Below are positions 1,561-10,789 of a stretch of DNA of 47,238 nucleotides, piece by piece. The DNA lies in NCBI GenBank assembly GCA_017446745.1, contig JAFSQF010000098.1, positions 1 to 47,238 of the forward strand. The letters are read 5' to 3'. Positions within the stretch are counted from its first letter, which is position 1; the number at the start of each line of letters is the position of its first letter. A program made the translations under genes and the position numbers. The DNA is from Bacteroidales bacterium. GTDB lineage: Bacteria > Bacteroidota > Bacteroidia > Bacteroidales > P3. The notes below the pieces were generated by a model. That model was not told where the DNA came from and did not search any database. It worked only from the letters and a program-made list of their open reading frames with translations.

Positions 1561-3858
1561 TCACTTGTCTAATCGCAAGAGGAACTGGAGCATCTGGTCA
1601 CGGCGGGTGCGCTCGGCATCAATCACTTCGTCGGTATAGTAGTGTGCTGTGGAGCCCTGATGGTAATGCCACACCATAGCTTTGGAAGCACTCTGCTTGC
1701 TGTCGATGTCGAAGCTCTTGAGGACCTCGATGGCCTCGGGAATACGGCGTTCCTCATAAAGGACATTGGCGAGGTTGAAATAGCTGAGGGCGAAGCTGGG
1801 GCTGATGCGTATGGCCTCGCGGAGAAGAGCAATAGCGGTGTCGGCATTGTGGTTCTGAGTGTATTCCAGACGGGCCACATCGTTCAGCAGCTGTTTGTTG
1901 TAGGGTGAATCGTGGAGAGCCTGACGGAAAGTAGCCAAGGCCGGTTTCTTCTGATATTCCTGAGCCATGGCCTGATAATAGGCGTAAGGGATGCCCGACG
2001 ACGAGATATTACACAGCGTGGTGCGAGCCTCCGCCGCGGCCTGCTCCACCGCACCCCATTGGCGTGCGTGAATGCCGAGGACTATGTCCTTGTATTGCCT
2101 CTCGCTGTGGAGGCGGGTTACGCCGACGGCGGCAGCGAGAAGGGTCAGCAGCAGGAGGGCGGGATTCCATCCCGACAGGAGTGCAGACAAAAGAGAACTA
2201 TGTGTGGGTCGTTGCTGTGGCGAAGCTTGGAAGCTTCGCCTCCTATTGGAAAAGCTGGAAGCTTCGGTTACTATTGGCGAAGCTGGGAAGTTTCGCCTCC
2301 TATTGGCAAAGCTGGAAGCTTCGGTTACTGTTGGCGAAGCTGGGAAGCTTCGCCTCCTATTGGCAAAGATGGAAGCTTCGGTTACTTTTGGCGAAGCTGG
2401 GAAGTTTCGCCTCCTATTGGCAAAGCTGGAAGCTTCGGTTACTGTTGGCGAAGCTGGGAAGCTTCGCCTCCTATTTAATTCGCTTCCTAACGCAACACCG
2501 AAAACGATGCTGCACCACAGAAGGAGCTCCGTGCGGTCGAACGGGAAATCGAAGAGGGCAAAGACCATGATTGCCACCGCAGCGGAGACAGGTATGATGA
2601 GGGCAATTGGAGACCACCGCATTCTGCGGTGGTGCCGCGACGCTCGGAGGCATAGGCCACTAAAGGACACAAACCTAAACGCTATGGGCAGCAGCAGGAG
2701 GAACAGCCCAATATAACCCGTCTCGGAAAGGAGACGAAGATATTCGTTGTGCGGACGCACAAATACGAAGTCCAGCACATCCACGGAGAAGATGTCGGCA
2801 GTGCCCACCTTGGGGTAACATATCTTCCAGTTTCCCACACCGCAGCCCAAAGCAGGGCTCTCGTCGACCATACGGAACGTGGTGCGCCAGAGTGCCTGGC
2901 GCTCATAAAGCGAGGCATTGGACAGCAGTCCACCGCTCTGGTCTGGCCCCGGCAGCTCCTTGAAAGCGAACCAGCGACAAGCACCGACAATAGCGACGCC
3001 CATGACTAATGCTGCGGCAACGCTCAGCAGAGCTCTCTTCCAAGCACCTGAATTGCCATACAAGGAGCTTTTCGCATTCTGCGAAAAAGACGGGGTGCCT
3101 TTCGCATTCTGCGAAAAGGAAAAGATATAAAAAATGACTACGGCTACAATCATGGCGACGAGAGCCAGCAGCACGGCACGGGCCTGCAGCAGCACAAGCA
3201 TGGCAAGCTGCGAGACCACAAGAGCCACATACAGCCAGCGGCGGCGGCGCATCATGACGATATGCATCAAGGGCAGCACCATAGTGAGCAGCACCATCAT
3301 GGCGAATGTACCCTTATGGGTGAAGAGCGACACCACGCTGTAGCGGCTGTCCCATGTAAGGCCGTCCAACTCCGAGACCTGCACCAAAGCCACGCCCGCC
3401 GAGGCGATGAAAACGATGGCCGAGAGGCGCGCAAGGAGCACCACGGTCTTTGCCGGATGACGCCGGTAGCAGTGCGCCGACACCAATACAACCATAGCGG
3501 CCATAAGCCAGCGCGAGGCATCATAGATGGCCTCGCCCTTGTTGGTGGCCCATACTATAGAAGCGAACTGCCAGAGGAGGAAAGGCAACAGGAGACCACC
3601 GCATTCTGCGGTGGTGCCGCTTCCTCTTTTGCAGCGCACGACTATATGCACCAGAATAAATGCCGAGAGGGTGGCTGCCAACGCAATGAAGCGCGGCATA
3701 TTGGATATGTCGGCAAGGTTGGGCGAGATGAGCAGTGTGGAGACGAGAATGCCCACGATGCTGACAAGGTAGAAAAGGCTATCCCCACGGTGGGGGATAG
3801 CCTTGGTTTGCTTGGAACGCGGGCGTCCTTGCCTGCGATCAAACTGTTTCTTTTGCAT
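1561..3858 (-). CDS. O-antigen ligase/polymerase-like (Wzy_C) membrane protein with C-terminal TPRs, invaded by palindromic repeats
   Basis: A 765-residue polytopic membrane protein. It has many hydrophobic segments between residues 29 and 455. The Wzy_C hallmark is GCGVGNW followed by HNEYLRLLSETGYIG near residue 371. A TPR-rich tail lies at about residues 560-760 (for example ALSYFNLANVLYEERRIPEA). The family joins or polymerises lipid-linked glycans in the inner membrane; the substrate is unknown here. Its ATG directly abuts the TAA of the upstream adhesin gene (stop at 3859-3861), so the two are probably co-transcribed. Oddities: residues about 7-28, 79-90, 246-263, 406-418 and 461-547 are encoded by five kinds of hairpin repeat, all within extramembrane stretches, and the frame stays open throughout. 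The last block is 4.5 copies of a 19-residue repeat (NRRRSFPASPTVTEASSFA). Family call is good; effect of the insertions is unknown. Confidence 0.85.
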   Translation of the reverse strand: MQKKQFDRRQGRPRSKQTKAIPHRGDSLFYLVSIVGILVSTLLISPNLADISNMPRFIALAATLSAFILVHIVVRCKRGSGTTAECGGLLLPFLLWQFASIVWATNKGEAIYDASRWLMAAMVVLVSAHCYRRHPAKTVVLLARLSAIVFIASAGVALVQVSELDGLTWDSRYSVVSLFTHKGTFAMMVLLTMVLPLMHIVMMRRRRWLYVALVVSQLAMLVLLQARAVLLALVAMIVAVVIFYIFSFSQNAKGTPSFSQNAKSSLYGNSGAWKRALLSVAAALVMGVAIVGACRWFAFKELPGPDQSGGLLSNASLYERQALWRTTFRMVDESPALGCGVGNWKICYPKVGTADIFSVDVLDFVFVRPHNEYLRLLSETGYIGLFLLLLPIAFRFVSFSGLCLRASRHHRRMRWSPIALIIPVSAAVAIMVFALFDFPFDRTELLLWCSIVFGVALGSELNRRRSFPASPTVTEASSFANRRRNFPASPKVTEASIFANRRRSFPASPTVTEASSFANRRRNFPASPIVTEASSFSNRRRSFQASPQQRPTHSSLLSALLSGWNPALLLLTLLAAAVGVTRLHSERQYKDIVLGIHARQWGAVEQAAAEARTTLCNISSSGIPYAYYQAMAQEYQKKPALATFRQALHDSPYNKQLLNDVARLEYTQNHNADTAIALLREAIRISPSFALSYFNLANVLYEERRIPEAIEVLKSFDIDSKQSASKAMVWHYHQGSTAHYYTDEVIDAERTRRDQMLQFLLRLDK
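2218..2475. repeat. In-frame 57-bp tandem repeat inside the O-antigen ligase-like gene (4.5 copies)
   Basis: The unit alternates a full palindrome A (GGCGAAGC, loop TGGGAA or close variant, GCTTCGCC, then TCCTATT) with a decayed version (GGCAAAGCTGGAAGCTTCGG, then TTACTGT). One unit is 57 bases, exactly 19 codons, so copy number can change without a frameshift. On the minus strand it encodes NRRRSFPASPTVTEASSFA and close variants. The stem-loop is recognisably the same as palindrome A in the intergenic arrays. Confidence 0.95.
2609..2638. repeat. Palindrome D, copy 2 (coding)
   Basis: A 30-base sequence identical to 3591-3620. The hairpin is ACCACCGCA, loop TTC, TGCGGTGGT. It lies inside the 1561-3858 gene and is read in a different codon phase from the other copy, here giving RHHRRMRWS. 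Confidence 0.9.
3068..3119. repeat. Palindrome E, two adjacent copies (coding)
   Basis: Two hairpins, at 3068-3089 and 3098-3119, each with stem TTTCGCA, loop TTC and stem TGCGAAA. They are read as FSFSQNAKGTPSFSQNAKSS in the 1561-3858 gene. The centre CGCATTCTGCG is shared with palindrome D but the outer stem differs. Confidence 0.9.
3591..3620. repeat. Palindrome D, copy 1 (coding)
   Basis: A 30-base element identical to 2609-2638: hairpin ACCACCGCA, TTC, TGCGGTGGT. Here it is translated on the minus strand as GSGTTAECGG, between predicted membrane segments of the O-antigen ligase-like protein. Confidence 0.9.
3775..3806. repeat. Palindrome F (coding, near N-terminus)
   Basis: Hairpin with arms AAGGCTATCCCC and GGGGATAGCCTT around a six-base centre. 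It encodes about KAIPHRGDSL near residue 20-27 of the 1561-3858 protein, just before its first membrane segment. Only one copy was seen in the window, so its status as a repeat is inferred from form and setting. Confidence 0.6.
3812..3839. repeat. Palindrome C-like element (coding, N-terminus)
   Basis: This 28-base stretch matches 26 of 28 positions of the intergenic palindrome C found at 30901, 30996, 31091, 31186 and 41054 (reverse-complement core ACGCGGGCGTCCTCGCCTGC). It encodes DRRQGRPRSK right after the start of the 1561-3858 gene. Confidence 0.8.
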
Positions 3859-6800
3859 TTATTTGACGATTAGTTTTTGCACCGAGCTACCGCCATTGCT
3901 GACAACGCGCACGAAGTAAGCGCCCTTGGCGAAGCCCGTGAGATCGATGGTGAGGGACTGCTGTCCGGCACGCGAGGAGGCGTGCTGTCCGGCAGCATAT
4001 TCTCCAACCACACGGCCGCCAAGGTCGATGATGGTGACGGTGGCAGAGCCGTCGACGCCGGCGAGTGCGATGGTGACACTCTCGCTGGCCGGGTTCGGGT
4101 AGATCGCGAACGATGCCGACTCGCCGTCAGCGCTCCAAATGCCCACATTCTCAACGGTGTCGAAGATGGCAGTATAGGTGGCATTGCCCAGCACCGTGAC
4201 GGTGCGCGGGTTCGCGGTGTCGCCATCGTCCCAGCGTATGAAGAAGTAGCCGCTGTAGGGCGTGGCGGAGAGTACGGCTTCGCTACCCGCCTCATATTCG
4301 CCGCCGCCGGCCACCATACCCCATTCGGGATTGTTGGCCACCACGGTGATGGAGAAGACCTCGCCCTCGTCGGAGGCGAAATAGGCTATGTAGGTAGTAT
4401 CCGCCACAGCCACCACCTGGCGCGGATTGTCGCTGTTGCCGTCGTGCCATTGCACGAAATGGAAGCCTTCGAAAGCCTCGGCGGTGAGGGTCACCGTGTC
4501 GCCCTCAGCGAAGAGGCCGCCGCCGGTAACAACACCCATAGCAGCATCTTCTGGTTCTGCAGTTATGGTGAAATACTGCGTCGAATCTTCATCGGAGGCG
4601 AAGATAGCCGTCAGGTCGACATCGGCTGTGGCCGGGAAGGTGTAGGGATTGTATGTCATGCCGTTGCTCCAACGCACGAAATGGTAGCCATCGAGTGCCG
4701 TGGCCGTGAGCGACACAGGCTGCAGGTATTCAAACTCGCCGCCGCCGCTGACGGTGCCCCATGCCGGGTCGTTGGGCTGCACCGTGACGGTATAGACGTC
4801 AGCCTCGAAGTATGCCTCGAAATTGTAGTTGGCAGCGACGGGGAACGAGAATGGGTTGTCGTCGACCTGAACAGAAACTCCTGGATAATCGGGAAAAGTC
4901 ACCACCCAATGGGTGAAGTGGTAGTGTGCCAACGGTATTGCCTCGACGGTGGCCGTGGAGTCGTAGTAGTAGGTGCCACTGCCTGTTGCAGTGCCCATGG
5001 CAGCGTTGTTCGATGTCGCCACCAACTGATAGGTGATGCGGCTGAACACCGCCTGTATGGAGGTGGAAGTGTTCGCGGCGAAACTGAAGCAGCGTGTGGA
5101 AGCCGACGAAGCGCTGCTGCTGGTCCACGTCTCGTTGATACGGTCCACATTGTTCACGTAGAGAGCCGTAAGCTGGCTTCCCTGACCGGGGATGAAGTCG
5201 TAGGAGGCTGTGAAACCCATGGGGTAGTAGTCCTCTTCGCCGCAGCGATTGTTGCCATAGTCAGCGCTCTTGTAAACCACGCCGGTGCCATCGCCCGAGC
5301 AAGAGACGGTGACAGCGACGGGCTGCGAAACGCTGACGGTGATGTCGTCGACCATGACATAACTATAATTGTTGCCGCTCGCACTATGATTGAAAGCAAA
5401 CCTTATTGATTGTCCGGCGTAGGCCGAGAGGTCTAAACTACGCTGCTGCCAATCGTTATCAGTGTACGAATAGTTCGCCACCGTACTCCAGGTCTGTGCA
5501 GTTTCATTGTAGACCTTGACATTGTAGAGAGATCCCGAATTATCGCTATACACAAAATCGTACCACGACAGAGAGGCAACAGCATCTGCGGGCAATTCAA
5601 GCACCGGGCTTACCAGCCAGTTGTCAACACTTCCTTCACTTACCAACGAGCCGAGCGAGCCAAAGCCATTATAGGCAACGGGGTCGCCCTGACTCCAATA
5701 CCATTGCTGCCATACACCAAAGTCGGTGCTGATGTTGCCGTAGTTCTGCCAGCAGTTGAGAGGTTCGTTCTGTTCGAAGCCCATGGTGTAGGGGAACGTA
5801 GTGATGGGGTCGCAGCTGAACACGTCGACCCACAGGGTGTCGCTCACCGAACCGGCAGCAGTGGTTGTAGTGGCCACAACGGAATATGTGCCGGCAGCAT
5901 TCCACACGGCTCGCACCACGGCAGGGTCGTTGGCGTCGACCATTGCCGTAGTGCCCTGCACCGTCCAGATCAAGGTTGCCGGATGCGTCAGCGATGCCCA
6001 GAACGTGGCGGTGTCGCCAGCAAAGACAGTGGCAGGACCATTGACGGTGGGGTACGACAGCGGCTCGCTCACCGAGAAAGATACGCTTTGCGGAGTGGTC
6101 ACATTACTGAGCGTAAACTCGATGAAAGTAAATTCATAACCATATTCGTCATACTGGCTGTATGTGCTGAACGGCACTGGTGAGCCATTGACATAGACAT
6201 TGTTGAAATCCAGACTGGTGCCACTCTCGGGGTAGACAGTATAGGTGACTGTTGAGCCCAACACCACGCTGTCGATCGCGCCACAAGCTATGGCGTTGTA
6301 GTTGCGTGAAATCTGCAGATTGTAGCCCGTAGGGCAGTTGAAAGCAACGGCAGTCTTCGGCACGAATTGAGCGGGACCCACAAGCAGGCGTATCATCGGG
6401 CGGCGAGTGGGGTTGCTCCATCTGACGCCATAAAATCCGCTTTGGAAATCATAGGCACCCATACCTCCATAAATCTCGTCGTCGACAGCAGGCATGAACG
6501 ACCCATTCACCACCTCGTAACCAACGCGATACATCATATTGGGTTTCAACTCTGGCTGCTCGGGGAACATCATGGTGATGACGTTGTAGTTGGAGACGAC
6601 ATCCCCAGTAATGTAGTTCCCGTTCTGGTTTGTTTCGTTGGCGGTGACGGTGTGCGATGCTGCTCCCGTGCTGAGCGTACGTCTTGAAAAAGTAGCATCG
6701 GAACCGTCATAATACGAGGAGTCTTCAAAGAGGACGGGCGCGATAATGGCTCCCGCTTCCGTCAATTCCGAAGAGGCCACGATCTGCATACCGCGCACAA

Positions 6801-9800
6801 CCCAGCCCGTGGGGACCGTCTGGCCCGTGCGATAGCGTACGTTCATTATGAACCCCGGCTGGTCATACCCTATCTCTTCAGGATTGTCGCTGTTGTATCC
6901 CGTGGTATTCTGCCCATAGCAATAATAGCTGCCATAGAGCATATTGCCGTTGTCCCAGGCCCATACATAGTCTGTGCCCACCGTGGCACCCACGGTATAG
7001 CTCATATTGATGGTGTCGGTGTGAAGACCACCGGGCATAGAAGTGACCGCAGTGAGCGTATGTTGCCCAACGGTAGCCGAGGGTATCAAACCATTATTAT
7101 AGATGGTGCCGAAAGTGCCGCCGTGATAATTAAAGCCGCCATTCACAGGGTTGTTGTTCCAGTAGGTGGTGTCGGTATAGAAGCCCGAAGCGTCGACTAT
7201 GGCATACTTCGTCTGGGCAAATGGTACCGAGACCACGTCCTGTCCCAGGAGATTGCCGTCGGCATAGAGCCGGGCAGTAGTACCCGCGAGGGGTTGAATT
7301 CCCATATTAGTGATGCGGCTCACGTAGGTGGCCGGAAGCTGCAAGCCCTGCGGCACCATCCCATAGGCTCCCCTTATAGCATTGGATGTGGTCCGGTAAT
7401 CATAGTCCGGTATGGGAATGACAAAGAAGTCGTCGACAGCCCATACATAACCGTAGGCTCCACCGGCATCGTTGTCACAGCTCCAACGCAGGCGGAGGTA
7501 GACTGAGGGTTGGTTGCCCAAGGCAATGGGCAGGTTTACAGATTTCCATCCTTGGACGGTACTATTCACATTAACGTCGACACTGCGGACGTTGATTTCG
7601 AGCGACGACCAGTTGACGCCGTCGGTGGAGTAGTCTATCCAGCATTTGTCGTTGTTGAAACAGCGATAGTACTGATAGAATTTCACGCGAATGCCTACCT
7701 CACCCATGGTGCTGAATGGTGGGAACGCGATATAGGCGTCGAAATTGCCGGTAGTGCCGTGTCCGCCCCATACGGCAATCTGGTCTTGCATGGTCATCAG
7801 CATAATGCCGGCATCACCCGAGATAGCGTTCAGCGACGAGTCCTCATAGCGGTTGGGGCGGAAAGGCCACGAATACCAGCCATCAAACGACGCAGGATAG
7901 TAAACATCGCTAAGGATGGTGTCAGTGTAGGAATCTATACGTTGCCAACGGGAGTGGTAGGCCGTCTGCTGATGGATAGGGATGGCCTCGCCGTTGACAT
8001 ACTGCGTGGTGGTCACCGTGCCGGTGCTATAGTACTGGTTCGGCACGCTAAAGTCGCAATAGAAAAGGGTGTCGCCCGACCGATACGGCTCCTCTGCCGG
8101 ACCCACAATCATACGTATCATGGGGCGGCGGCCCGGCTGGCGCCAGCTGTAACCAAAATAGCCACCGATAGCATCGTACTGGCCCATACCGTAGGTCGTG
8201 CTGTTGTCAACTGCCGGCAGGAAGTAGTAATTGTTGGCCATCTGATAACCCAGACGATACGAAGTGTTGGGCTGCAGTTCCGGCTGACTGGGGAACATCA
8301 CTTGAATGACATTGTAGCTGGTAACACCGTCACCCCGCACGTGGACAGCATCGGCATTGAGGTCGTCGCTCGCAACGGTATATGTCTGGGCTCCCGTGGG
8401 AATACTGACAAACGTAACGCTGTTGCCGCTTTCTGTAACAAAATTGCTGTCGTATGCAAGAAACGGATTGAACATGGCTCCGGCTTGAGTATACTCGGAG
8501 GATGTTACAATCTGCATACCACGGATCACCCACCCCTCGGGAATGACGTCGCCCGTGCGATAGCGCACATGGTAGCTATAACCCTCATAGCCGGCTCCAG
8601 CATCCTCCGGGTTGTTGGCAACAAACCCATCCGAATTGTTTCCCGCCAAAGCATAGTCGCCATAGTACATGGTACCGTTATCCCAGGCCCAAACCCGGTC
8701 GCCCGTCGAGCCGTCGACGGTGTACTGCCACTGCAGGGTGTCGGTAGAGAGGCCTCCCGGCATGGTGGTGAAGGCCGAGAGCGTGTGGGACCCGGCGGTG
8801 GCCGAAGGCATCATGCCTCCGTTGTAGAGCGTCCCCGATGTGCCGCCGTAGTATTGATAAGCCCCATATCTCGGGTTTCCGTACCACAGTGTGGTGTCGG
8901 TGTAGAATCCCGAGCGGTCCACTATGGCGTATTTACTGCTGAGAATCGGGACGCTGACCACATCCTGCCCCATCAAAGTGCCATCGGCGTAGATATTTGC
9001 CGTGGTGTTGCTGAGTGCCGAAGAACCCATGTTCTTGATTTGCGAGACGTAGGTGAGCGGCAGCTGCATGCCCTGCGGAATCGTTCCGTAAGCACCCCAG
9101 ATGTTGTTGGCCATGGTCTGCATATCGTACTGCGGTACCACGGTGACCGAGAAATCATCGACAAGCCAGAAATAGCCGTAGGCACCGCCCGTTGTGTTGT
9201 CGCTACTCCAGCGAAGACGCAGATAGACGTTGCTCTGGTTGCCAAGCGAGACAGGAAGGATTGTCGACTTCCAGCCAAGAAGCGAGCCGTTACTATTGAC
9301 GTCAATATTACGGACATTGATCTCCACAGCACTCCAGTTGACGTTGTCGGTTGAATAGTCAATCCAGCATTTGTCGTTGTTAAAGCATAGATACAGCTGA
9401 TAGAAGTTCACCTTTATCATACTGACACCCACTGTAGAGAATGCCGGAAATGCGATGTAGGCGTCAAAATTGCCAGTGTTTCCCGTACCTCCCCAAGATG
9501 CGATCTGGTCGCACATGGTCATAATCATCACGCCTTGGTTGGCAGTGTTTGACTCAAGATAGCCGAGCCACGATGGAAAAATTTCGGCGAAAGTAGGATA
9601 GTTGCTGTAACTGATGGAACTCATTGCCGTGTCGGCCAGGCGTTGCCAACGGGAATGGTAGGCCGTCTGCTGATGGATAGGGATGGCCTCGCCGTTGATG
9701 TACTGCGTGGAGGTCACGGTACCGGTGCTGTAGCCCTGGTTCGGCACACTGAAGTCGCAGTAGAAGAGCTCGTTCTGCGCAGACGCAGACACAGCAAGAG

Positions 9801-9852
9801 CAAAAAACACAGCAGCCGTGAATAACAATTTAAAGAAGTAATTGTGTTTCAT
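3859..9852 (-). CDS. Giant T9SS-secreted adhesin-like surface protein
   Basis: The protein has 1997 residues. A signal peptide (KLLFTAAVFFALAVSASAQ) is followed by two tandem copies of a ~565-residue unit (about 28-593 and 594-1163), each starting LFYCDFSVPNQ.YSTGTV and ending near RRPMIR..VGPA. Then come a PKD-like domain (about 1265-1340) and a cleaved-adhesin/MAM-like domain (about 1345-1507, ending VMVDDITV). Four Listeria-Bacteroides-type repeats follow (about 1605-1900; motif WGTVSGGGEFEY, then GYHFVRWSNG). Last is a type A T9SS sorting domain from about 1904 (SFAIYPNPASESVTIAL, ending SVQKLIVK). Family knowledge predicts T9SS export, C-terminal cleavage and anchoring at the surface. 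It is preceded by its own promoter and followed with no gap by the O-antigen ligase-like gene. Ligand unknown. Confidence 0.85.
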   Translation of the reverse strand: MKHNYFFKLLFTAAVFFALAVSASAQNELFYCDFSVPNQGYSTGTVTSTQYINGEAIPIHQQTAYHSRWQRLADTAMSSISYSNYPTFAEIFPSWLGYLESNTANQGVMIMTMCDQIASWGGTGNTGNFDAYIAFPAFSTVGVSMIKVNFYQLYLCFNNDKCWIDYSTDNVNWSAVEINVRNIDVNSNGSLLGWKSTILPVSLGNQSNVYLRLRWSSDNTTGGAYGYFWLVDDFSVTVVPQYDMQTMANNIWGAYGTIPQGMQLPLTYVSQIKNMGSSALSNTTANIYADGTLMGQDVVSVPILSSKYAIVDRSGFYTDTTLWYGNPRYGAYQYYGGTSGTLYNGGMMPSATAGSHTLSAFTTMPGGLSTDTLQWQYTVDGSTGDRVWAWDNGTMYYGDYALAGNNSDGFVANNPEDAGAGYEGYSYHVRYRTGDVIPEGWVIRGMQIVTSSEYTQAGAMFNPFLAYDSNFVTESGNSVTFVSIPTGAQTYTVASDDLNADAVHVRGDGVTSYNVIQVMFPSQPELQPNTSYRLGYQMANNYYFLPAVDNSTTYGMGQYDAIGGYFGYSWRQPGRRPMIRMIVGPAEEPYRSGDTLFYCDFSVPNQYYSTGTVTTTQYVNGEAIPIHQQTAYHSRWQRIDSYTDTILSDVYYPASFDGWYSWPFRPNRYEDSSLNAISGDAGIMLMTMQDQIAVWGGHGTTGNFDAYIAFPPFSTMGEVGIRVKFYQYYRCFNNDKCWIDYSTDGVNWSSLEINVRSVDVNVNSTVQGWKSVNLPIALGNQPSVYLRLRWSCDNDAGGAYGYVWAVDDFFVIPIPDYDYRTTSNAIRGAYGMVPQGLQLPATYVSRITNMGIQPLAGTTARLYADGNLLGQDVVSVPFAQTKYAIVDASGFYTDTTYWNNNPVNGGFNYHGGTFGTIYNNGLIPSATVGQHTLTAVTSMPGGLHTDTINMSYTVGATVGTDYVWAWDNGNMLYGSYYCYGQNTTGYNSDNPEEIGYDQPGFIMNVRYRTGQTVPTGWVVRGMQIVASSELTEAGAIIAPVLFEDSSYYDGSDATFSRRTLSTGAASHTVTANETNQNGNYITGDVVSNYNVITMMFPEQPELKPNMMYRVGYEVVNGSFMPAVDDEIYGGMGAYDFQSGFYGVRWSNPTRRPMIRLLVGPAQFVPKTAVAFNCPTGYNLQISRNYNAIACGAIDSVVLGSTVTYTVYPESGTSLDFNNVYVNGSPVPFSTYSQYDEYGYEFTFIEFTLSNVTTPQSVSFSVSEPLSYPTVNGPATVFAGDTATFWASLTHPATLIWTVQGTTAMVDANDPAVVRAVWNAAGTYSVVATTTTAAGSVSDTLWVDVFSCDPITTFPYTMGFEQNEPLNCWQNYGNISTDFGVWQQWYWSQGDPVAYNGFGSLGSLVSEGSVDNWLVSPVLELPADAVASLSWYDFVYSDNSGSLYNVKVYNETAQTWSTVANYSYTDNDWQQRSLDLSAYAGQSIRFAFNHSASGNNYSYVMVDDITVSVSQPVAVTVSCSGDGTGVVYKSADYGNNRCGEEDYYPMGFTASYDFIPGQGSQLTALYVNNVDRINETWTSSSASSASTRCFSFAANTSTSIQAVFSRITYQLVATSNNAAMGTATGSGTYYYDSTATVEAIPLAHYHFTHWVVTFPDYPGVSVQVDDNPFSFPVAANYNFEAYFEADVYTVTVQPNDPAWGTVSGGGEFEYLQPVSLTATALDGYHFVRWSNGMTYNPYTFPATADVDLTAIFASDEDSTQYFTITAEPEDAAMGVVTGGGLFAEGDTVTLTAEAFEGFHFVQWHDGNSDNPRQVVAVADTTYIAYFASDEGEVFSITVVANNPEWGMVAGGGEYEAGSEAVLSATPYSGYFFIRWDDGDTANPRTVTVLGNATYTAIFDTVENVGIWSADGESASFAIYPNPASESVTIALAGVDGSATVTIIDLGGRVVGEYAAGQHASSRAGQQSLTIDLTGFAKGAYFVRVVSNGGSSVQKLIVK

Positions 9853-10026: not shown

Positions 10027-10782
10027 TAGGAGGCGAAGCTTCCCAGCTTCGCCAATACGAATAGTAGGTTATCGTTTTGGTCGGGCTGGGAAGCCCGACC
10101 TCCTACATGAATGCCACAGTGCGATGTAAACGTAGGAGGCGAAGCTTCCCAGCTTCGCCAATACGTATAGTATATTGTCGTTTAGGTCGGGCTGGGAAGC
10201 CCGACCTCCTACATGAATGCCACTGAGCGATGGAGAACGTAGGAGGCGAAGCTTCCCAGCTTCGCCAATACGAATAGTAGGGCGTCGTTTTGGTCGGGCT
10301 GGGAAGCCCGACCTCCTACTGGAATGCCCCTGAGCGATGGAAACGTAGGAGGCGAAGCTTCCCAGCTTCGCCATTGCGAATAGTCTATTGTCGTTTTGGT
10401 CGGGCTGGGAAGCCCGACCTCCTACAGGAATGCCACTGAGCGATGGAAACGTAGGAGGCGAAGCTTCCCAGCTTCGCCAATGCGAATAGTATATTGTCGT
10501 TTGGGTCGGGCTGGGAAGCCCGACCTCCTACAGGAATGCCACTGAGCGATGGAAAAAGTAGGAGGCGAAACTTCCCAGCTTCGCCATTGCGTATAGAAGG
10601 TCGTCGTTTTGGTCGGGCTGGGAAGCCCGACCTCCTACATGAATGCCCCTGAGCGATGGAAAACGTAGGAGGCGAAGCTTCCAAGCTTCGCCAATGCTTA
10701 TAGTATATTGTCGTTTGGGTCGGGCTGGGTAGCCCGACCTCCTACAGACGTTTTGGTCGGGCTGGGAAGCCCGACCTCCTAT
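10027..10782. repeat. Tandem array of ~106-bp composite palindromes (seven copies plus a half copy)
   Basis: Copies start at 10027, 10133, 10240, 10346, 10452, 10559 and 10666, spaced 106-107 bases. Each reads: TAGGA, palindrome A (GGCGAAGC, TTCCCA, GCTTCGCC), about 25 variable bases, palindrome B (GGTCGGGC, TGGGAA, GCCCGACC), TCCTAC, then a conserved linker including GAATGCC and GCGATGGA. An extra palindrome B ends the array at about 10753-10782. The array separates the adhesin promoter from the korAB terminator. Open frames through it are repeat translations. Confidence 0.95.
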
Positions 10783-10789
10783 AAAAAAA

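Follow-up and report, generated by a model that had tools for sequence, protein, structure and literature searches.

In-frame copies of four palindromic repeat families within one O-antigen-ligase-like gene of a Bacteroidales bacterium

How does a membrane-protein gene come to carry copies of several palindromic repeat families while its reading frame stays open, and are such elements tolerated by the gene or selected to be readable? Both possibilities were raised in an earlier note on a gene located at positions 1561-3858, on the minus strand, of the window, by which is meant the whole stretch of 47,238 nucleotides that was analysed. This gene is a single open frame of 765 codons, uninterrupted across every element. 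It belongs to a 2.79-Mb draft genome of 117 contigs, which is 91.9% complete.

The host gene and the elements that it contains

The encoded protein has a Wzy_C domain (48.1 bits, with a cut-off of 31.7), followed by C-terminal TPRs, and it is one of four Wzy_C proteins encoded by the genome. When its predicted fold is compared with the PDB by Foldseek, the top match is WaaL (7tpg_B, E-value 1.4e-4, target-length TM-score 0.53), which is also the sole match below 0.001. A domain above the cut-off together with a WaaL-like predicted fold would class the gene among the Wzy_C/WaaL O-antigen ligases, and the product, which retains the RPHN motif, is apparently an intact O-antigen-ligase-like membrane protein. 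The start of the frame is supported by the position of its ATG, immediately after the TAA of the upstream gene (3859-9852). The C element and palindrome F, which are found near this start, are therefore presumably translated, a later start being possible.

Seven element stretches, at five sites and from four repeat families, are found within this one ORF. They are listed here from the N-terminus to the C-terminus of the protein, together with palindrome F.

3812..3839, minus strand: C element, at about residues 7-16, reading RRQGRPRS; two substitutions compared with the family consensus
3775..3804, no strand assigned: palindrome F, with 12-bp arms, residues 19-28; single copy in the genome
3589..3617, plus strand: D1 (D/E family), with the stem ACCAC/GTGGT, reading TTAECGG, between TM2 and TM3
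3095..3118, plus strand: E2 (D/E family), reading SQNAK, at the end of TM8 and in the loop TM8-TM9
3060..3090, plus strand: E1 (D/E family), with a CAAGGAG end, reading SQNAK, in the loop TM8-TM9
2639..2662, plus strand: G element, ACGCTCGGAGGC..GGCCACTA, adjoining D2
2607..2637, plus strand: D2 (D/E family), reading RHHRRMRW, in the loop TM10-TM11
2211..2475, plus strand: A-element (REP) array of 57-bp units, (RRRSFPASPTVTEASSFAN)n, residues 462-550, in the loop TM12-TM13

The open frame with a C-like element, two D and two E palindromes and a 57-bp array, as described in the earlier note, is thus present in full. Its view that several families occur in one gene holds (C, D/E, A and the additional G), but its five kinds of palindrome are divided differently. 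D and E have a common core, CGCATTCTGCG, and differ in their outer stems, which are usually complementary (CCAC/GTGG, TTTT/AAAA, CCTT/AAGG and others); they are a single palindrome family with four copies in the host gene. Palindrome F, which had been taken for a repeat, is a real hairpin, but its sequence, CTATCCCC..GGGGATAG, is found at one place in the genome. The fourth family is G, which the note had missed. D1 and D2 are 37-bp copies that are 95% alike, the cores of E1 and E2 are 30 bp apart, and the D-G neighbourhood recurs at another locus of the genome (L187, G000:C72). The array has a period of 57 bp according to TRF, or alternatively a period of 28 with 9.0 copies; each 57-bp unit consists of two A-derived copies, the second being degenerate. 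The host gene contains elements that lie in frame and wholly within an ORF of more than 120 residues, as intragenic REPs do.

The repeat families in the genome

All four families are dispersed in the genome. The A core, GCTGGGAAGC, has 212 copies in the 2.79 Mb, compared with 3 for the reversed pattern; the D/E core has 79 copies and the C pattern, GGACGCCCGCGTWCC, has 143, compared with 0 for the reversed pattern in both cases. The sequence of the C element is CGCAGGCGRGGACGCCCGCGTACC. An 18-base G pattern, with at most three mismatches, is found at 19 places in 0.74 Mb of the same genome (overlaps included, equal contexts counted once), and two control patterns are found at none. Among 119 other genomes of this genus, none has more than 18 copies of the A core or more than 6 of the D/E core, so that the expansions of A and D/E look private to this lineage.

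The layout of the A element is GG-NNNN-GCTGGGAAGC-N'N'N'N'-CCTCCTAC, with four main complementary versions of the stem (CGAA/TTCG, TCGG/CCGA, CAAA/TTTG and TCAG/CTGA). Among 134 A elements with at least two perfect outer pairs, the end is TAGGAGG in 114 and GTAGGAGG in 75; the A elements thus have the GTAG end of the GTAG REPs, in a partly degenerate form. Like these REPs, they have alternative complementary stems and occur as singles and as inverted pairs; in the sample, neighbours no more than 120 bp apart form 31 pairs, of which 18 are inverted. They also flank a RAYT-type gene, as do GTAG REPs. This gene (L137, frame 1165-1815, on contig 112) encodes a Y1_Tnp protein that scores 58.9 bits for REP_Tyr_transpos, below the 80-bit cut-off, and five A cores are found within about 0.2 kb of its frame (at 1014, 1103, 1836, 1926 and 2019). 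An A-like copy runs into the 3' end of the gene, where it is translated as GGRASLPD in the C-terminus. The motifs NHVH, WQ and YINNNP of the encoded protein agree with those of RAYT subclass 2.4 (NH[IFV]H, WQ and YIxNNP), which would place it in this subclass. Element A is a REP, and its end reads (G)TAGGAGG. Neither D/E nor C cores were found at the loci of the four Y1 genes of the genome, and D/E has neither the tag of the GTAG or CGTC superfamily nor, as would go with GTAG, a linked transposase among these loci. Upstream of 46 of the 64 D/E elements there is a GGAG. D/E is REP-like, and is placed in neither superfamily.

Other repeats are seen nearby and elsewhere in the genome. Arrays in which A stem versions alternate flank the host gene and its upstream neighbour, at 1177-1501 and 10027-10788 of the window, with periods of 98 and 106-107. 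Three short Y1 transposases of the same genome (L134:1477-1947, L135:1489-1929 and L136:1486-1932, on contigs 67, 113 and 81, respectively) have DH[IV]H and YI..Q.EHH motifs and resemble subclass 1.2 of PMC6006769, a subclass described there as generally being without typical terminal IS200 structures. Each adjoins palindromic repeats, of the types ATCCCCTACGGGGAT, GAGCCCCGTAGGGGC and CCCCGCAC..GTGTGGGG, and the first and third of these types have further copies in the genome sample. Another palindrome family, with the core GGATTGCAAATCC (TTGCGTCGGATTGCAAATCCGACGCAA and variants), is represented by 17 hairpins in the 435-kb sample of the genome (G000).

The insertion sites in the protein

The earlier note had proposed that orthologues be examined for the absence of the repeats. 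Eight orthologues, 38-44% identical to the host protein, are found: five in the 119 other genomes of the genus (E-values up to 1e-12) and three others (L100-L102). The comparison does not include L003 and L004, which are 20% identical, or L108-L113. Segment lengths were taken between anchor residues that are identical in all nine proteins, with the upper median of the eight orthologues as the reference. In the twelve element-free segments the host protein is within one residue of this median. It exceeds the median by 89 residues at the array, 19 at the E pair, 12 at the N-terminus and 8 at D2 and G; the gain at the N-terminus is 3 when compared with the longest orthologue. The D1 segment is 1 residue longer than the median and 9 residues shorter than the longest orthologue, three orthologues being 8-9 residues longer there. 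The aligned lengths thus indicate clear extra length at the array, the E pair and D2 with G, and leave it unclear at D1 and the N-terminus. As there is no net gain of length, D1 is no clean insertion at such a distance; it may be of old date, or loop sequence may have given way to it. No single clean length step covers C, G or D2 individually. With orthologues that are 38-44% identical, neither an empty site nor a target duplication is demonstrable at the nucleotide level. In one orthologue (G075), a different short repeat of the CATTCAAG type is found in the loop after TM12, where it adds little length, and also at the C-terminus; since another repeat is present there, this is a hint that the loop following TM12 is permissive.

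An AlphaFold2 model was calculated from the nine sequences and has a mean pLDDT of 73.6. The pLDDT falls under 50 in stretches that coincide with or adjoin the elements (residues 1-4, 11-23, 78-86, 254-269, 407-414 and 467-560) and also in three element-free loops (48-51, 169-178 and 308-313). According to the earlier note, all repeats lie between membrane segments or before the first one. In the model they are indeed within or bordering loops, but four of the palindromes overlap with helices: F with the start of TM1, D1 with the start of TM3, E2 with the end of TM8 and G, which sits mostly at a helix end, with the end of TM10.

The two sides of the membrane can be compared by the distribution of basic residues. 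In the orthologues, lysine and arginine account on average for 14.25 of the 54.6 residues of the even loops (26%) and for 11.9 of the 127.8 residues of the odd loops (9%). By the positive-inside rule the even loops are probably cytoplasmic, and with them all five insertion sites, as these all fall in even loops; the RPHN loop is on the opposite side. With 14 loops and tails in two sets of seven, the chance that all five sites fall in one set is 21/2002, about 0.01. This one-sided clustering is suggestive, the loops being different in length and function.

Tolerated insertion or selection for readability

Copies within other genes bear on this question. A copy was counted as internal when it is at least 30 residues from both ends of a predicted ORF, the predictions coming from a home-made gene finder that overlooked two long ORFs of the window. 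The contexts cover 76 of the 79 D/E copies, 141 of the 212 A copies and 54 C copies (the genome-wide 143 being obtained with a slightly longer pattern); the C copy of the host gene differs from the pattern and is outside the 54. For having fewer than two perfect outer pairs, 12 of the 76 D/E and 7 of the 141 A contexts were dropped. Six of the dropped D/E contexts are stemless, four in predicted genes (L065, L067, L068 and L185) and two not (L047 and L198), and look like chance occurrences; some of the remaining ones, for instance L178 and L193, resemble elements that have decayed. Four D/E copies are within 30 residues of an ORF end and hence not internal (L187, L046, L050 and L177).

Internal copies are 5 of 64 for D/E, 8 of 134 for A and 3 of 54 for C; the predicted coding share, by comparison, is 80.5% in a 435-kb sample of the genome. 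Four of the internal D/E copies are in the host gene and the fifth is in another Wzy_C gene (L189:247-2016, G000:C80), where it lies in a basic stretch of a protein that also has an unrelated C-terminal tandem repeat (EASKHRNIE-like). The internal A copies are confined to three genes: the host gene, a CobW GTPase (L194:84-1433, G000:C95) with five copies in a 36-bp period beside a His-rich stretch, and a DsbD (L126:3628-5718, G000:C37), with A between the N-terminal and membrane domains; in CobW, too, the A elements are located between domains. The stem version GGTCAG/CTGACC, a complementary change, occurs in six of the 134 A elements, all of them coding copies in CobW or DsbD. Intragenic C is not confined to the host gene, as internal copies occur in an ABC transporter (L116), in L123 near its start and in a periplasmic binding protein (L213). 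A giant protein of 3,870 residues (L117:18942-20000 and L118:1-10551, G000:C67) seemed to have many coding C copies; this DNA is part of a protein unit that is itself repeated and includes GGTPTYQTVNA, and it was not counted.

By the measure used, 10 of 288 sampled genes have any repeat load, and the host gene ranks second. This rank and the four of five internal D/E copies agree with the suggestion of a tolerance hot spot. The ranking is imperfect, since first place goes to a piece of the giant protein, whose other repeats are in the next stretch, and it is no test, the host gene having been chosen for its repeats. The other suggestion, selection for readable elements, is not borne out. Within the host protein, three different frames of the D/E element are in use (TTAECGG, RHHRRMR and SQNAK). 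Four array units that were compared differ at four sites, all of which change an amino acid (15 non-synonymous and 0 synonymous pairwise differences). When codons are scored against host usage, C, E2 with E1, G, D2 and the array come out negative, at -0.19 to -0.59 per codon, and the remaining four stretches that were scored have positive values (0.04 to 0.20); D1 (+0.13) and F (+0.07) have ordinary codons. Five of the six frames of the A element are open, and when hairpins matched for length and GC content are drawn at random, 14-80% of them lack a stop in all six frames. With three D/E frames, non-synonymous array differences, non-host codons and few internal copies, passive tolerated insertion fits better than selection for a readable element.

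The reading that is favoured, and that is considered probable, is tolerated insertion of REPs, with in-frame growth of the array, in an apparently intact ligase-like gene. The cytoplasmic loops and the N-terminal tail would take up copies of the four dispersed families, which would arrive by transposition; the A elements would be mobilised by the RAYT-type transposase whose gene is flanked by A copies. Selection would remove most intragenic insertions, and the survivors would be copies that keep the frame and are situated in disordered loops, at a distance from the RPHN loop in the periplasm. The A array would then expand by tandem duplication in frame, 57 bp being 19 codons; the inserts would be neutral and the gene expressed. 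Other array periods are 98, 106-107 and 95 for intergenic arrays in the window, 36 in CobW and 66 for an A array outside predicted genes on contig 12, and the divisibility of 57 by 3 lends weak support to growth in frame.

Other explanations account for parts of these data. If the inserts had been domesticated, their peptides (the basic loops and the RRR-rich array) would be of use, for instance by fixing the topology through the positive-inside rule or as a linker of variable length, and the elements would be selected as readable. The probable cytoplasmic location of all five sites agrees with this, as does the use of the most basic of the three frames by the array, C, D2 and G; but for E1, E2 and D1 the frame in use is not the most basic one, the single element type D/E is translated in three frames, the array units differ by amino-acid changes only and the eight orthologues manage without the extra length at the array, the E pair and D2 with G, so that domestication is unlikely. 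A preference of D/E for Wzy_C genes, or for the DNA of their loops, would explain why all five internal D/E copies are in two of the four Wzy_C genes of the genome. This pattern concerns two genes, however, and 59 of the 64 D/E elements do not count as internal to a predicted gene. The closeness of the two E cores and the similarity of D1 and D2 suggest that the four copies in the host gene may be just two arrivals, and in L187 another predicted frame contains a D copy, 26 residues from its end; such a preference is judged to be improbable.

That the host gene represents a pseudogene in decay, or an artefact of the assembly, is very improbable. The draft state of the assembly and the low coding score of the entire gene (0.05 per codon) would be in line with this, but the low score stems mainly from the element stretches, the frame is open through all elements, the RPHN motif is present and the element-free segments match the orthologues in length.

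Relation to known intragenic repeats

The description of GTAG and CGTC REPs in PMC3733652 (BMC Genomics 2013) includes repeats within genes, with clusters coding for 43-82 residues and with two insertions in one ORF (uvrA and uvrB), and it is stated there that such inserts may be neutral. The host gene is an extreme case of these already described intragenic REPs, with which it shares palindromes in frame, dimers or clusters, subfamilies with complementary stems, and positions that include the N- or C-terminus. Unlike the cases in the main part of that paper, from which its supplement of intragenic cases is separate, the present one has four families in one ORF, which encodes a polytopic membrane protein of a Bacteroidales genome; the GTAG repeats listed in that paper are from Proteobacteria, Cyanobacteria, Chloroflexi and PVC bacteria. 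The likeness to Rickettsia palindromic elements (RPE) that the earlier note had pointed out holds, in that palindromic inserts in frame, here of several families, are found in a gene that looks intact; in RPE they are spread across several proteins. The sequences are different, and there is a RAYT-type gene to which A is linked; for the CGTC repeats, among which RPE-4 and RPE-6 are classed in PMC3733652, no dedicated transposase is reported in that paper. The RAYT-type gene resembles TnpA-REP subclass 2.4 of PMC6006769, a subclass that occurs in Bacteroidetes, in its NHVH, WQ and YINNNP motifs and in having REPs around and into the gene. In contrast to the host gene, the REP insertions noted in PMC6006769 are in transposase genes, and the word "intragenic" is absent from its main text. 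Among the papers listed in literature searches, supplements excluded, none came up that describes several REP families sharing an ORF, GTAG REPs of Bacteroidales or a link of intragenic REPs to membrane sidedness.

REPs are termed extragenic, and the host gene shows to what extent a gene can be decorated with mobile repeats while its frame stays open, and which of its parts bear them. The case also includes a GTAG-type REP together with a RAYT-type gene in a Bacteroidales genome, and the host gene provides a concrete example for testing whether membrane topology filters insertions. It is conceivable, but doubtful, that in polytopic membrane proteins generally the REP copies in cytoplasmic loops alone persist, and that their frames often agree with the positive-inside rule. 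If this is true, the Wzy_C ligases would preserve a lasting record of several REP families, and would amount to a natural experiment in loop-scanning insertion.
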